The notes under the pieces: generated by a model
Databases searched by the model: none
What the model was told of the DNA's origin: nothing
What the model saw: the letters and a program-made list of their open reading frames with translations, nothing else
Source of the DNA: Thermoplasmata archaeon
Lineage (GTDB): Archaea; Thermoplasmatota; Thermoplasmata; Thermoplasmatales; Thermoplasmataceae
Reading direction: 5' to 3'
DNA length: 18,868 bases
Assembly: GCA_021793945.1 (NCBI GenBank)
Contig: JAJYRT010000021.1
Span: forward strand, 1-18,868
Program-made: the position numbers and the translations under genes
In this document: piece after piece, positions 14,469 to 18,868 of the stretch
Position numbering within the stretch: the stretch's first letter is position 1
How the letters are laid out: each line of letters opens with the position of its first letter

Positions 14469-15156
14469 GACAAGCCCTCAGAGGCCAAGTTCGCAGGAAG
14501 CCATGAAGAAAGCGATGAGCTTTCAGATGGTGTATCTGTTCATAATGATAATGATGGTTGTGCTGGTTTCTGACATATCAATAAGGAACGCCATCGGGAC
14601 AATGATGAACAAGGTTCTCATGCCAGTAATAGGCTTTAATTACACAACCCCCCTTATGACGCTATTTCTTGTAGGCATACTGATAGGGTTGATCACCTCA
14701 GTCCCCCGTTACTTCTTCACAGACTGGATAAGCATGGGAAGGGCCCAGAACCGCATGAAGGCTTTCAACAAGGTTTACAAGGAGGCATTCAGGGCAAACC
14801 AGAAGGACAGGCTTGCAAAGCTGAACAAGATGAGGATGGACGTAACCATGGAGCAGCAGCAGCTTTCCATGAACACGATGAAGCCCCTGATGATCCTGAC
14901 AGTTTTCATTTTCCTGATATATATGTGGCTTTTTGTCTACATATCTGCCCTGCCGTACCAGATAATAGCGACACCATGGGATACAGACATAAATCTTGCT
15001 ACTGCCAAGATATTCATCGCACCATACTGGATAGGGATCTACTTCATAGCGAGCTTGGTAATAGGCTACTTTGCAACAATGATAATAAAATACATAGACT
15101 TCACATTCAAACTGAGGAAGTACGAGAAGAGAGAGATTGATGCTATTAACGATTAG
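14461..15156 (+). CDS. DUF106 membrane protein (archaeal Oxa1/YidC/EMC3-superfamily insertase)
   Basis: The 231-residue product belongs to the DUF106 family, relatives of EMC3/TMCO1 and YidC that help insert membrane proteins. Hydrophobic segments lie at about 22-38, 63-81, 142-163 and 186-208. Between the second and third is a charged helical region (about 92-138, with RAQNRMKAFNKVYKEAF and MEQQQLSM), the expected cytosolic coiled coil. The position after secY and within the ribosomal cluster fits co-translational insertion. The TTG at 14461 is the start given here; an ATG at 14503 preceded by AGGAAG is a real alternative that would remove 14 residues. Confidence 0.88.
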   Translation: MTETSPQRPSSQEAMKKAMSFQMVYLFIMIMMVVLVSDISIRNAIGTMMNKVLMPVIGFNYTTPLMTLFLVGILIGLITSVPRYFFTDWISMGRAQNRMKAFNKVYKEAFRANQKDRLAKLNKMRMDVTMEQQQLSMNTMKPLMILTVFIFLIYMWLFVYISALPYQIIATPWDTDINLATAKIFIAPYWIGIYFIASLVIGYFATMIIKYIDFTFKLRKYEKREIDAIND

Positions 15157-15679
15157 CGGTGAAATAGGGAGCGGCAAATCAACCATTGCCAAGCTGGCCT
15201 CCACCAAGTTGGGATATTCTTACGTTTCAGGGGGAGACATCTTCCGGGACATCGCGAAGGAGAAGGGCATGACTGTCGACGAATTCGGCGCTCTTGCAGA
15301 GAAGGAAGAGAATATAGACCGGGATCTTGACCGGCTGCTTCTTGACGCACTGAGAAAGAACAGGAACATGGTGGTAGATTCAAGGCTGTCCGGATGGTTG
15401 TGCTTCATCAATGGCATCAATGCTCTGAAGGTTTTCGTTAAAGCCCCGCTGGATATTCGGGTAAAACGGGTTATGTTCAGGGAAAACCTTCCTGAAAAAG
15501 CCGTAAGGGCTGAAATACGGGCAAGAGAACAATCTGAAATGAAAAGGTACAAGCAGTATTATGATATTGACTATTCCAGAACGGATATCTACGACCTGAT
15601 TATAGACTCGGGTAGCAGAAGCGCTCAGGAAATAGCGGATGAATTATATGACAGAATATCGTCAGGCGGAAAGAAATGA
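15140..15679 (+). CDS. cmk: Archaeal cytidylate kinase
   Basis: A 179-residue P-loop kinase phosphorylating CMP/dCMP. Walker A is GEIGSGKST near residues 7-15. YVSGGDIFRDIAKEKGM, DRDLDRLLLD, VDSRLSGWL and the lid/arginine segment ENLPEKAVRAEIRAREQSE follow, with YDIDYSRTDIYDLIID as in archaeal Cmk. The ATG at 15140 is preferred over the TTG at 15137. It overlaps the DUF106 gene by 17 nt and cbf5 by 41 nt. In many other archaea eL34 and eL14 lie between cmk and cbf5; here they are absent. Confidence 0.93.
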   Translation: MLLTISGEIGSGKSTIAKLASTKLGYSYVSGGDIFRDIAKEKGMTVDEFGALAEKEENIDRDLDRLLLDALRKNRNMVVDSRLSGWLCFINGINALKVFVKAPLDIRVKRVMFRENLPEKAVRAEIRAREQSEMKRYKQYYDIDYSRTDIYDLIIDSGSRSAQEIADELYDRISSGGKK

Positions 15680-16772
15680 TCCGGAAGGATTCATTGTAAT
15701 AGACAAGCCAAAGGGGCCGACCAGTCATCAGGTGGATTTCTGGGTCAAGAAAATAATTGGTACTGACAGGGTGGGCCACATAGGCACACTCGACCCCAAC
15801 GTATCGGGCGTGCTGGTGATGGCAATCGGCCGAGCTACAAAACTTATTGAAATAGCGCATGAGGAGCCAAAGGAGTACATATGCGTCTTAAGGACATACT
15901 CTGAGGTATCCGAAGCAAGGCTCGGGGAGGTGCTGTCCGAATTCACCACCGATATCTACCAGCTCCCTCCGGTAAGGTCTGCAGTGTCAAGGACAGTAAG
16001 GGTAAGAAGAATTTTTTCAATAGATCTGATGGAATATGGAGGGAGGCTCTCGCTTCTCAGGATAAGATGCGAATCTGGGACATACATCAGGACTCTCTGC
16101 ACCGATATTGGGTATGTACTTGGATGTGGCGCTCAGATGGCAGAATTGAGGCGAACGGCGACCGGTCCCTTCAACGAGGAAAGGATGGTTACGTTGCAGA
16201 TGCTTAAAGATGCGGTATATCTCAGCACCCAGTCCTCTGGAAAAAAGTTATCTGAAATACTTCTGCCGGTAGAATTCCTGTTCCGGAGTTACCCGAAGGT
16301 AGTTGTTAAGAATTCGTCACTTGAAAATATCGCCCATGGTTCGGATCTCTTTCCCGGCGGGATCAAGGCCATCGTGGGTGAACCAAGAAAGGGAGACCGG
16401 GTGTGCGTGGTTTCCGAGGATAATTACGTTGTGGGAACAGGAAAGATGATGGTATCATTCGACGAAGTCAGCGATCTAAAGGTCGTTGACTTTGATAGAA
16501 TCCTTATATCTCCTAAGGCTAAGGTTACTGTAGAAAATGAGGCAAAACCAGAGAGAAATAATGTGGTACGGAAGGAAGTCCGGCAGGGATCTGCTGCCGT
16601 ACACAAATTTGGAAACAAGCTACATCCAGATCATGGACGATCTCAGGGCGGGGGTTATTCCAGAGACATCCCAGCCCGGGTCGGGAAAAATACCCGATTT
16701 GAGGGAAGTCCTTATCAGCTACGGAAGAAAAAGGATAAAGGAAGAATTCGCGGGCGATCAGGTAGTCATTAA
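15639..16772 (+). CDS. cbf5: Cbf5/TruB-family rRNA/tRNA pseudouridine synthase
   Basis: The 377-residue catalytic subunit of H/ACA ribonucleoproteins (probably also acting on tRNA U55). Motif I is DKPKGPTSH (22-30). The catalytic Asp52 lies in GTLDPNVSGVL, and LPPVRSAVSRTVRVRRI and SGTYIRTLCTDIG follow. A PUA domain occupies about 219-293. The N-terminus is shorter than in most archaeal Cbf5 proteins. Residues 294-377 are a hydrophilic, basic tail that is read entirely inside the out-of-frame start of nop5. The ATG at 15639 overlaps cmk by 41 nt; an ATG at 15648 is also possible, and neither has a strong SD. Confidence 0.9.
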   Translation: MNYMTEYRQAERNDPEGFIVIDKPKGPTSHQVDFWVKKIIGTDRVGHIGTLDPNVSGVLVMAIGRATKLIEIAHEEPKEYICVLRTYSEVSEARLGEVLSEFTTDIYQLPPVRSAVSRTVRVRRIFSIDLMEYGGRLSLLRIRCESGTYIRTLCTDIGYVLGCGAQMAELRRTATGPFNEERMVTLQMLKDAVYLSTQSSGKKLSEILLPVEFLFRSYPKVVVKNSSLENIAHGSDLFPGGIKAIVGEPRKGDRVCVVSEDNYVVGTGKMMVSFDEVSDLKVVDFDRILISPKAKVTVENEAKPERNNVVRKEVRQGSAAVHKFGNKLHPDHGRSQGGGYSRDIPARVGKNTRFEGSPYQLRKKKDKGRIRGRSGSH

Positions 16773-17379
16773 GCTTCACGCGGTAAAGTCTGAACTTGAC
16801 CGTATCATCAACACGTACCTGGAAAGCGCTATGCCATTTGCTACCCTGTCTGGAATCACATATCATGATGATGATCCCTGCGCATTTTTTTCAAGGAACC
16901 TGGACCGGATGAAAGGGGGAATTGAGGATTCCGTGGTGTTAAGGGAACTATGGTCGACTGGAATGGGCCTATGCAAGTACCGTTCTGCGCTATCAGAGTA
17001 CCTGAACGTGGAGATAAGGAAGGTGATGCAGAACACTTCAGATCTGGTCGGTCCGGATCTTACTCTGGAGATCCTGTCCAGAAGCGGGGGCCTGAAGAAC
17101 CTTGTCAAATATCCATCAAGTACGATTCAGGTACTTGGCGCAGAAACCGCATTCTTCAAGCACATGACCACCGGCTCGCCACCGCCGAAGCACGGCGTTA
17201 TCTTCAAGCATCCGGACGTTTCTCCGCTTAAGCCATCCCTGAGGGGAAAGGCCTCAAGAGCCATTGCAAACAAGATAGCCATAACGTCAAAGGCAGACTT
17301 CCTGGGCACAAAAATGGACATAGAGCTGATGAAAAAACAGCTCGACAAGAGGCTGAAGGAAATTAAGTCCGGTCAGTAA
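16537..17379 (+). CDS. Short Nop5 (Nop56/58-type) C/D box RNP protein
   Basis: A 280-residue Nop-domain protein. The coiled-coil part begins near residue 55 (LREVLISYGRKRIKEEFAGD, AVKSELDRIINTYLESAMPF). The Nop domain at about 165-256 is unmistakable, with GGLKNLVKYPSSTIQVLGAE, PPPKHGVIFKHP and LRGKASRAIANKIAI. It would bind L7Ae and C/D guide RNA. Archaeal Nop5 is usually about 400 residues with an N-terminal fibrillarin-binding domain; here only some 54 residues precede the coiled coil, so that domain seems missing. The ATG at 16537 lies inside cbf5 (236-nt overlap) with GGTTA about 9 nt upstream; ATGs at 16561 and 16633 are alternatives. The Lys-rich end (MKKQLDKRLKEIKSGQ) is typical. Confidence 0.88.
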   Translation: MRQNQREIMWYGRKSGRDLLPYTNLETSYIQIMDDLRAGVIPETSQPGSGKIPDLREVLISYGRKRIKEEFAGDQVVIKLHAVKSELDRIINTYLESAMPFATLSGITYHDDDPCAFFSRNLDRMKGGIEDSVVLRELWSTGMGLCKYRSALSEYLNVEIRKVMQNTSDLVGPDLTLEILSRSGGLKNLVKYPSSTIQVLGAETAFFKHMTTGSPPPKHGVIFKHPDVSPLKPSLRGKASRAIANKIAITSKADFLGTKMDIELMKKQLDKRLKEIKSGQ

Positions 17380-18806
17380 TTTGTAAGAGCTTTCTGGTAC
17401 AGATATTTCTCTCCGGGTATGTTGACGGGATATTCTCCAGTCAGGCAACTCAGGCAAAGATTCCGCTTTTGCATTCCTATTGACTTTACCAGACCGTCAA
17501 TTGAAATGTAGGCCAGGGAATCAGCGCCGATTTCTTCTGTTATTTCCTGGTTAGTCCTCCCTCTTGCTATGAATTGATCCTTCGTTTTCATGTCTACTCC
17601 AAAGTAGCAGGGGGCAATGATTTCTGGCGATCCTATCCTGACGTGCACCTCCGTAGCGCCCGCCTTTCTCAGAAGCGTAACGATATGTCTCATGGTATTG
17701 CCTCGTACTATGCTGTCGTCAACAAGTACTATACGCTTCCCCTTCACTACTGACCTGATCGCATTCAGCTTCATCTTTATAGATGCAGTTCTCTGAACCT
17801 GCGACGGCATTATGAAGGTTCTGCCGGAATACCTGTTCTTTATGAGACCCTCGCTGTAAACAATGCCCGACCTCTGGGAAAAACCCAGTGCCTGGGCCCT
17901 TCCTGAATCCGGTACCGGTATTACAACGTCAGCATCTACAATGCTTTCATCGGCGAGTACCCTTCCAAGTTTGATCCTGGTTTCGAAAACCTCTATGTTG
18001 TCTATTATGCTGTCCGGCCTGGCAAAGTAGACATATTCAAACATGCAATGCGCTTCCACCCTTGAAGATGCTATGAAAATTCTTTTCGGTCCGATGGGAG
18101 TTATTTCCACCACCTCACCGGGAAGCACATCCCTTATGGTTTCCCCTCCAAGCACATCCATTACGCAGCTTTCTGAGGCAACAACGTAAGTATTGCCTGC
18201 CTTTCCAAGAATAAGAGGCCTTATTCCCATGGGATCCCGGATGGCAAAAAGCCTGTCATCAATCATGAATGCAGCGGAATAAGCTCCTTTAAGCTTTGAC
18301 ATAGCGATCTTCATTCCATTCGCAACGCCGTTTTCCGCTATCTCCTTGGAAAGTTCCATGAGCATTACCTCGGTATCCGAGGAAGTTGAAAATGTAGCCC
18401 CTCTTTTCTTGAGTTCCTCGCTGAGCTGCTCTGCGTTTGTTATCTCTCCGTTATGGGATATGGCAAGATAGCCGGACGCGCTGGACACAACAAATGGACC
18501 TGCATTCTCCAGGGTTTTCGTTCCCATTGTAGAATATCGCGTATGTCCGATTCCCACGTTACCGGAAATCGGGTTCTCCTTCTCGTTAAAAACGTCGCTT
18601 ACAAGCCCCATTCCCTTCTTCAGCTTCATCATTGTGCCGTCAAAAGCTGCTATTCCGGCACTTTCCTGCCCACGGTGCTGCAGCGATTTCAGGGAACTGA
18701 CAAGGTAGCCATAAGCCTGTTCGTTGGAAATCACGCCAACTACAGCGCAGTGATCACTTGGTTTTTGCCCAGTTATAGGATCTTGTTCTTGCTGCGGGAA
18801 ATCCAC
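17373..18806 (-). CDS. purF: Amidophosphoribosyltransferase (glutamine PRPP amidotransferase)
   Basis: This enzyme catalyses the first committed step of purine synthesis, PRPP + glutamine to phosphoribosylamine. From GTG 18806 it has 477 residues. Cys20 in DHCAVVGVIS is the glutaminase nucleophile, which implies removal of a 19-residue propeptide. GHTRYSTMG, SHNGEITN and RDPMGIRPL complete the N-terminal Ntn domain. The PRPP-binding motif IVLVDDSIVRGNT is at about 359-371. Four cysteines (254, 400, 451, 454) match the iron-sulphur-type enzyme. GTG 18806 is chosen because GAGGTG lies 8 nt upstream; the frame stays open to the window edge, with another GTG at 18851. It converges with nop5 and overlaps it by 7 bp. 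Confidence 0.94.
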   Translation of the reverse strand: MDFPQQEQDPITGQKPSDHCAVVGVISNEQAYGYLVSSLKSLQHRGQESAGIAAFDGTMMKLKKGMGLVSDVFNEKENPISGNVGIGHTRYSTMGTKTLENAGPFVVSSASGYLAISHNGEITNAEQLSEELKKRGATFSTSSDTEVMLMELSKEIAENGVANGMKIAMSKLKGAYSAAFMIDDRLFAIRDPMGIRPLILGKAGNTYVVASESCVMDVLGGETIRDVLPGEVVEITPIGPKRIFIASSRVEAHCMFEYVYFARPDSIIDNIEVFETRIKLGRVLADESIVDADVVIPVPDSGRAQALGFSQRSGIVYSEGLIKNRYSGRTFIMPSQVQRTASIKMKLNAIRSVVKGKRIVLVDDSIVRGNTMRHIVTLLRKAGATEVHVRIGSPEIIAPCYFGVDMKTKDQFIARGRTNQEITEEIGADSLAYISIDGLVKSIGMQKRNLCLSCLTGEYPVNIPGEKYLYQKALTNY

Positions 18807-18868
18807 AGTGAGAGCACCTCTTTTGCCTGATGTGGTATGTATGGTGACCACATCTCCTGCAGGTAATA
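18773..18868 (-). CDS. C-terminal end of an unidentified minus-strand protein (partial)
   Basis: A frame different from purF enters from the right edge and ends at a TAA (18775-18773), giving 31 residues that include EMWSPYIPHQAKEVLSLWI. The pattern of a helix with SPYIP and conserved aromatics resembles the end of a class-I aminoacyl-tRNA synthetase anticodon-binding domain, but the fragment is too short to name. If real, it overlaps the purF start by 34 nt, a style of coupling seen elsewhere in this window. It could also be a chance open frame, because the purF frame is open over the same stretch. Confidence 0.35.
   Translation of the reverse strand, partial: YYLQEMWSPYIPHQAKEVLSLWISRSKNKIL
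18815..18820 (-). promoter_or_regulatory. Ribosome binding site deciding the purF start
   Basis: On the minus strand GAGGTG lies 8 nt before the GTG at 18806-18804. The alternative GTG at 18851 has GGAGAT directly against it with no spacer, so it is the poorer start. Confidence 0.55.

Follow-up and report, generated by a model that had tools for sequence, protein, structure and literature searches.

The window, that is, the whole stretch of 18,868 nucleotides that was analysed, carries a ribosomal-protein operon of a Thermoplasmatales archaeon, as judged by eye from its open frames and from kin sequences. The host group consists of acid-loving archaea. Near the end of the operon lie cbf5 and nop5, whose reading frames run through the same bases over more than two hundred nucleotides. 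The features discussed here are as follows.

15639 to 16772, plus strand: cbf5, pseudouridine synthase of the H/ACA guide RNP, 377 aa with a C-terminal tail, stop codon TAA; the in-frame ATG at 15648 may be the start.
16518 to 16769, plus strand: Cbf5 tail, residues 294-377, basic and predicted to be disordered (AF2 pLDDT below 50 for 294-377), with a net charge of +14 for residues 293-377.
16537 to 17379, plus strand: nop5, scaffold protein of the box C/D guide RNP, 280 aa, in frame +1 relative to Cbf5.
16537 to 16772, plus strand: putative dual-coding overlap, 236 nt counted from the ATG at 16537; Cbf5 codon position 1 is Nop5 codon position 3.
16560 to 16562, plus strand: Cbf5 codon AAT (Asn), at the site of the cbf5 stop codon in 11 of 26 non-overlapping relatives.
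16561 to 16563, plus strand: alternative nop5 ATG, directly 5' of W-Y-G, found in many overlapping relatives; the overlap would then be 212 nt.
16564 to 16572, plus strand: codons of the Nop5 W-Y-G motif, used as alignment anchor; the Cbf5 frame reads Val-Val-Arg here (from 16563).

Cbf5 is recognised by NCBIfam NF003280 (385.8 bits against a cut-off of 242, residues 6-294), by TIGR00425 (295.5 bits against 238.15) and by the Pfam models TruB_N, TruB_C_2 and PUA, all above cut-off, with PUA at residues 219-286. An earlier note on this DNA had read the Cbf5 frame as open to 16772, about 84 codons past the PUA domain, and this reading holds: the PUA domain closes at 286 and the match to the family model at 294, with about 83 residues beyond. 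The 236-nt out-of-frame overlap that it described is also borne out (212 nt with the second ATG). Its estimate that at least about 70 nt were truly Nop5-coding was too low, since homologous Nop5 sequence starts at the W-Y-G at 16564 and spans the remaining overlap.

Nop5 matches the Pfam family Nop, PF01798 (112.6 bits, cut-off 25.4), and stays below the curated cut-off of the NCBIfam aNop56 equivalog PRK14552.1 (144.3 bits against 452). It is a short, divergent Nop-family protein, which we name Nop5 here but which lies outside that equivalog. Its AF2 model matches archaeal Nop5 structures, among them 3pla_A (E-value 9.2e-15) and 3nvi_A. The mean pLDDT is 86, with values of 73-84 across residues 11-80, where the model contains two strands, one helix and the first coiled-coil helix. 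According to these models, what the overlap encodes would be folded in Nop5 and disordered in Cbf5. In other archaea, the N-terminal domain of Nop5 is described as binding fibrillarin (PMC3608112). This domain looks shrunk to about 50 residues in the window (16537-16740) and in Thermoplasmatales Nop5 generally.

The other gene borders nearby are ordinary. The gene at 15137-15679, cytidylate-kinase-like by eye, overlaps cbf5 by at most 41 nt (15639-15679), or by 32 nt if cbf5 starts at 15648, a usual operon overlap. A convergent amidotransferase/phosphoribosyltransferase gene (17373-18851, minus strand) shares 7 nt with nop5 at the stops (17373-17379).

Regarding the start of nop5, a locus of the window's own clade with a Cbf5 74% identical to ours (L035, genome G047) has TTG at the second start place and an ATG nine codons before W-Y-G. 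Because this relative has TTG at the equivalent of 16561, the comparison favours 16537 as the nop5 start, and 16561 appears less likely. Shine-Dalgarno-like pairing is weak in the window (-4.4 and -3.3 kcal/mol for the two ATGs, calculated with an anti-Shine-Dalgarno sequence that was not taken from these genomes); the background has a median of -3.5 kcal/mol, and 38% of background sites reach -4. Pairing is strong in several overlapping relatives, with -8.9 in L034, -10.6 in L042, -9.3 in L064 and -10.8 kcal/mol in L065. The scan is thus suggestive only, with clear sites in those relatives and weak ones in the window.

The architecture recurs beyond this contig. One Cbf5 from a 3.5-kb contig (P0121) has 377 aa and an identity that rounds to 100%, and two others, P0122 and P0123, are 98% and 97% identical; all of them keep it. 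The Nop5 protein P0001, of 280 aa, comes from a 31-kb contig that possibly includes the window's own record. The kin genomes G001 and G002 (loci L004 and L003) retain the same overlap. An indel or assembly error as the cause of the overlap is therefore very unlikely, given these proteins from other contigs and the kin genomes.

We then looked at the junction across the order. Cbf5 was searched in 117 genomes, with matches in 110, and 82 junction loci were read (including L003 and L004). Left out were 28 junctions, namely G096 and G097, whose matches came in pieces, and 26 low-scoring loci resembling class D (see below), with a best E-value of 1e-66 or weaker than 1e-74 and open frames of 284-318 aa (one of 384 aa in G026). 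With the window, the set comprises 83 loci, of which 69 had both genes and a W-Y-G-like anchor and were compared; the other 14 (L087, L098, L102-L113) were set aside. In 43 of the 69 junctions (class A), nop5 lies in frame +1 without exception; counted from the nearest ATG, or from GTG in L058, the overlap measures 182-239 nt, and Cbf5 extends 179-233 nt beyond the W-Y-G anchor. In the remaining 26 (23 of class B and three long-tailed ones of class C), the cbf5 stop precedes the anchor, and the two genes share at most 44 nt. No junction among the 69 has an overlap of a size between these two groups. In twelve more distant loci (class D), Cbf5 lacks a tail of this kind. A sample of 150 genomes drawn from the whole class gave a match in 141; outside the tailed group, the matches listed end at or before query residue 305, and certain open frames there are longer, up to 652 aa.

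Two further observations concern these loci. L083, L086 and L092, together with L087, which is cut off by the stretch read, form a small clade in which Cbf5 has a charged and polar-rich tail of about 280 residues, about 555 aa in total, with a cbf5-nop5 overlap of just 8-14 nt. Besides, several Nop5 proteins in the databases are short: P0021 (215 aa) begins in the last part of the overlap and P0007 (191 aa) beyond it, and P0005 (198 aa) and P0006 (205 aa) are likewise short, as judged by length only. These entries probably lack the N-terminus, apparently an effect of gene-calling programs that shy away from long overlaps.

Evidence for a maintained Cbf5 frame comes from stop codons. After W-Y-G, the first stop in the Cbf5-type frame falls at codon 59-77 in 43/43 overlapping loci and at codon 6-25 in 26/26 non-overlapping ones. 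Cbf5 ends in another frame in four of these controls (L039, L043, L061, L062), and without them the early stop is found in 22/22. In all 43 class A loci, a stop interrupts the third frame by codon 46. Nop5 is homologous in both groups, and therefore the open Cbf5 frame is not forced by the Nop5 protein. When nop5 codons were shuffled synonymously in 42 of the 43 class A loci (L066 was removed by the shuffle filter), 182.9 stops were expected and none is present; the 26 controls have 114 against 137.0 expected, somewhat fewer than expected. The same is seen most cleanly codon by codon. T-ending Nop5 codons in a context that would make a stop amount to 0/791 in the class A overlap, 452/1829 downstream and 114/479 in the matching control zone. 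For 22 diverged representatives the figures are 0/408 in the overlap against 212/927 downstream, for the window's own clade 0/89 against 40/223, and for the window alone 0/18 against 6/44, which is too few by itself. T at Nop5 third positions drops to 9.7% in the class A overlap from 25.6% downstream, against 26.3% and 24.8% in the controls. It is also scarcer where no stop would arise (0.227 against 0.347 in class A; 0.417 against 0.340 in controls).

The composition of the tail points in the same direction. Compared with stop-free shuffles, real tails have a higher net charge (+12.6 against +7.5, in 21/21 representatives) and fewer hydrophobic residues (10.0 against 14.1, lower in 20/21); the test covers 21 of 22 representatives, as L073 gave too few open shuffles. 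According to these comparisons, selection maintains the tail not only open but also basic and hydrophilic. Class B tails, which are mostly encoded upstream of nop5, are basic too, and the median charge is +14 in class A and class B alike. These values come from a table in which 34/43 class A, 15/24 class B, 3/4 class C and 0/12 class D tails were parsed. The presence of basic tails in class B, where there is no long overlap, suggests that the trait is the basic tail itself, which the overlap is one means of encoding. As a related observation, the basic Cbf5 tails of classes B and C are mutually dissimilar and recur in sister lineages without a long overlap, so that the trait looks kept while its sequence turns over.

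We considered whether the tail replaces a missing Gar1, an idea that finds no support, as Gar1-like matches occur in 85/117 genomes (E-value at most 0.001). Only 18/117 exceed the Pfam cut-off, and such weak matches indicate that the Gar1 of this order is divergent or at times escapes detection.

Substitution rates in both frames, a check proposed in the earlier note, bear on the two proteins at once. At identical Nop5 residues, class A codon differences in the overlap and downstream are 0.099 against 0.262, 0.233 against 0.515, 0.347 against 0.525 and 0.508 against 0.609 in four bins of rising divergence, a gap-aware comparison in which pairs within clades share history and are not independent events. 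Synonymous change in Nop5 is thus lowered 1.2- to 2.6-fold in the class A overlap. No lowering is seen in the controls, where the overlap zone and the downstream part give 0.340 and 0.351, 0.546 and 0.512, 0.552 and 0.584, and 0.609 and 0.618. Nop5 identity in the 0.12-0.3 bin is 0.771 in the overlap part and 0.780 downstream in class A, and 0.535 and 0.821 in the controls, where the N-terminus evolves faster than in overlapping loci. That the class A N-terminus is as conserved as the downstream part is as expected if the overlap also brakes Nop5.

An overlap-aware count was made on eight close clades, which include 26 of the 43 class A loci. In this count, NN/NS divides the rate of changes that alter both proteins by the rate of changes that are silent for Cbf5 alone, and NN/SN has as denominator the changes silent in Nop5 only. 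NN/NS is 0.655 for the tail (0.49-0.92 by bootstrap over codon columns) and NN/SN is 0.25 for Nop5 in the overlap (bootstrap 0.20-0.33). The downstream control of this clade-wise count used fixed codon windows with no gap check, and g76, and perhaps ferC, look misaligned in it. The count, which thus finds constraint in both frames, indicates that both are under purifying selection, Nop5 more strongly. NN/NS is just mildly below 1, being below 1 in 6/8 clades and not in the other two; therefore, the composition of the tail is selected more clearly than its sequence.

Taken together, we think that 16537-16772 is a long-lived dual-coding overlap, in which the N-terminus of Nop5 and a basic, disordered tail of Cbf5 are encoded by the same bases and both frames are under selection, and we give this reading a probability of about 0.94. 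The earlier note had offered as one option that the basic tail is real and the DNA dual-coding, and it is this option that stop avoidance, slowed Nop5-synonymous change and NN/NS support.

Among the alternatives, the one to be weighed most carefully is that the tail is translated and stays open because a long, non-hydrophobic end is harmless, selection acting solely against damage and the tail having no function. The modest conservation of its sequence, together with its predicted disorder, would fit such a case. However, a premature stop would merely shorten the tail and should be tolerated, yet there is none in 43 loci, and the sister lineages also have basic tails without needing a long overlap for them. 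We hold this explanation to be improbable.

An RNA structure or a regulatory RNA in the overlap would also slow synonymous change, but it would not clear stops from one frame only. Moreover, there is no Rfam match within the overlap, and the folding energy is ordinary in the window (z -1.33) and in 22 representatives (mean z -0.48, lowest -2.80, against -0.69 downstream), so that we regard such an element as very unlikely.

That the open frame is there by chance, with a lost cbf5 stop and a tail read neutrally on to the next one, would agree with the stop just before W-Y-G in relatives and with the one-step codons described below. Against it stand the complete lack of stops and of stop-making T-ending codons, the slowing of Nop5 synonymous sites solely in overlapping loci, and a tail charge and hydrophobicity beyond those of shuffles. 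Very recent kinship of the overlapping loci, on which chance would have to rely, is contradicted by their downstream divergence. We see hardly any room left for this explanation. The same can be said of the view that the Cbf5 tail alone codes and nop5 begins only towards the end of the overlap or beyond, where the database predictions P0021 and P0007 place it: the Nop5 frame of the overlap is homologous to the N-terminus of non-overlapping relatives (W-Y-G, L-R-x-G, P-D-L-R), pairs of middle divergence are 77% identical in the overlap against 78% downstream, NN/SN is low, and this part of Nop5 is predicted to fold. Finally, programmed frameshifting into a Cbf5-Nop5 fusion, which the earlier note had mentioned and for which a single slip inside the overlapping frames would suffice, is scarcely credible, as there is no in-frame fusion among the 69 junctions, all 43 overlapping loci keep separate frames with their own stops, nop5 retains start codons (several with a Shine-Dalgarno-like site), and the Cbf5 frames of about 555 aa in L083, L086 and L092 are tails and not fusions.

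As for how the overlap arose, the neighbouring lineages offer a simple answer. Both sister groups contain non-overlapping loci, 11/26 in all, whose cbf5 stop occupies the codon that immediately precedes Val-Val-Arg in class A. L086 has a stop codon at that site too, behind its own stop, and in 10/43 class A loci the codon there is one change away from a stop. These stops and one-step codons make the loss of that stop in an already tailed ancestor the simplest origin. The option that the tail is a by-product of a lost cbf5 stop is therefore plausible for the origin, although the frame has been kept by selection since then, as indicated by stop avoidance and by the rates. In the earlier note, relatives with a cbf5 stop near 16530 and no conserved tail were to mark the frame as a chance one. 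Relatives that stop before W-Y-G do exist, and the corresponding frame within their nop5 soon runs into stops, but they too have a basic tail, with its coding sequence upstream. When the tree is rooted on the tail-less class D, a group set apart by a fully supported branch, class A forms one clade or nearly so; the AU test does not reject a single class A clade (p 0.395), yet only 15% of bootstrap trees contain it. The tree is compatible with a single origin of the overlap, with or without a subsequent loss in one of the sister groups, and does not settle which.

Under the dual-coding reading, cbf5 and nop5 would be translated from one operon mRNA. Ribosomes on cbf5 would read on to 16772, so that the pseudouridine synthase would end in a positively charged, disordered tail. 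A second set of ribosomes would initiate within cbf5, at 16537 (or 16561), and translate this stretch in the nop5 frame, yielding a small folded N-terminal domain and the start of the coiled coil. We hypothesize that an ancestor whose cbf5 stopped just before W-Y-G lost that stop, after which the longer tail would have been retained and adjusted through synonymous codon choice in nop5. The function of the tail might be electrostatic contact with RNA or with RNP partners.

It is tempting to go further and propose that the overlap couples both guide-RNP machines. Ribosomes finishing Cbf5 would cross the nop5 start, so that the output of the H/ACA enzyme would set the output of the C/D scaffold, and the Nop5 code would supply an archaeal, independently evolved basic disordered tail acting like the eukaryotic snoRNP tails. 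We put this forward tentatively, at well below even odds. If coupling were true, the overlap would be kept throughout the clade with neither gene able to change its end without harming the other.

An overlap of at least 182 nt kept in 43/69 junctions across an archaeal order, involving two core guide-RNP genes and accompanied by a control in sister lineages, suggests that cells may stably maintain long dual coding on one strand if one of the products is disordered. It would also mean that some database Nop5 proteins of these archaea are without their N-terminus and that basic Cbf5 tails of predicted disorder are not restricted to eukaryotes. For the terms searched, the open-access literature gave no paper on a cbf5-nop5 overlap by title or by the start of the abstract.

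Among known systems, the rnpA/rpmH genes of Thermus (Feltens et al. 2003, as described in PMC9841429) come close: in that prokaryote, two conserved RNA/ribosome genes overlap at length on one strand and out of frame, and both are expressed. In Thermus, according to that description, rpmH is nested fully in rnpA, with neighbouring start codons in one start region, unlike our locus, where the 3' end of cbf5 overlaps the 5' end of nop5 and the internal start lies about 60-80 codons before the cbf5 stop. In this geometry, it resembles holD/rimI of enterobacteria (Palleja et al. 2008, PMC2478687), reported as a co-directional end-on overlap conserved across relatives, beside which the cbf5/nop5 overlap measures 182-239 nt. 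Annotated long overlaps in 58 species are reported to exceed an exponential expectation (PMC2174442), a view that differs from the one presented in PMC2478687. Short stop-start overlaps of the ATGA/TGATG kind, described with translational coupling (PMC6728339), also join co-directional neighbours, and several of the non-overlapping relatives have short junctions. Unlike cbf5/nop5, however, they are described as spanning a few nucleotides and encode no second protein segment. With respect to the tail, eukaryotic Cbf5, Nop56 and Nop58 have lysine-rich (KKE/D) disordered tails, which are said in PMC11528048 to be absent from archaea. The archaeal tail is like that of eukaryotic Cbf5, as described there, in being a charged, disordered C-terminal extension on the same enzyme. 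It differs in having about as much Arg as Lys (K/R 0.95) and an acidic fraction of 0.10, net basic, in 34 class A tails, and no KKE/D repeats are seen by eye in the printed archaeal Cbf5 tails. We infer that the archaeal tail is an Arg/Lys-mixed analogue of the eukaryotic ones, with a separate origin.
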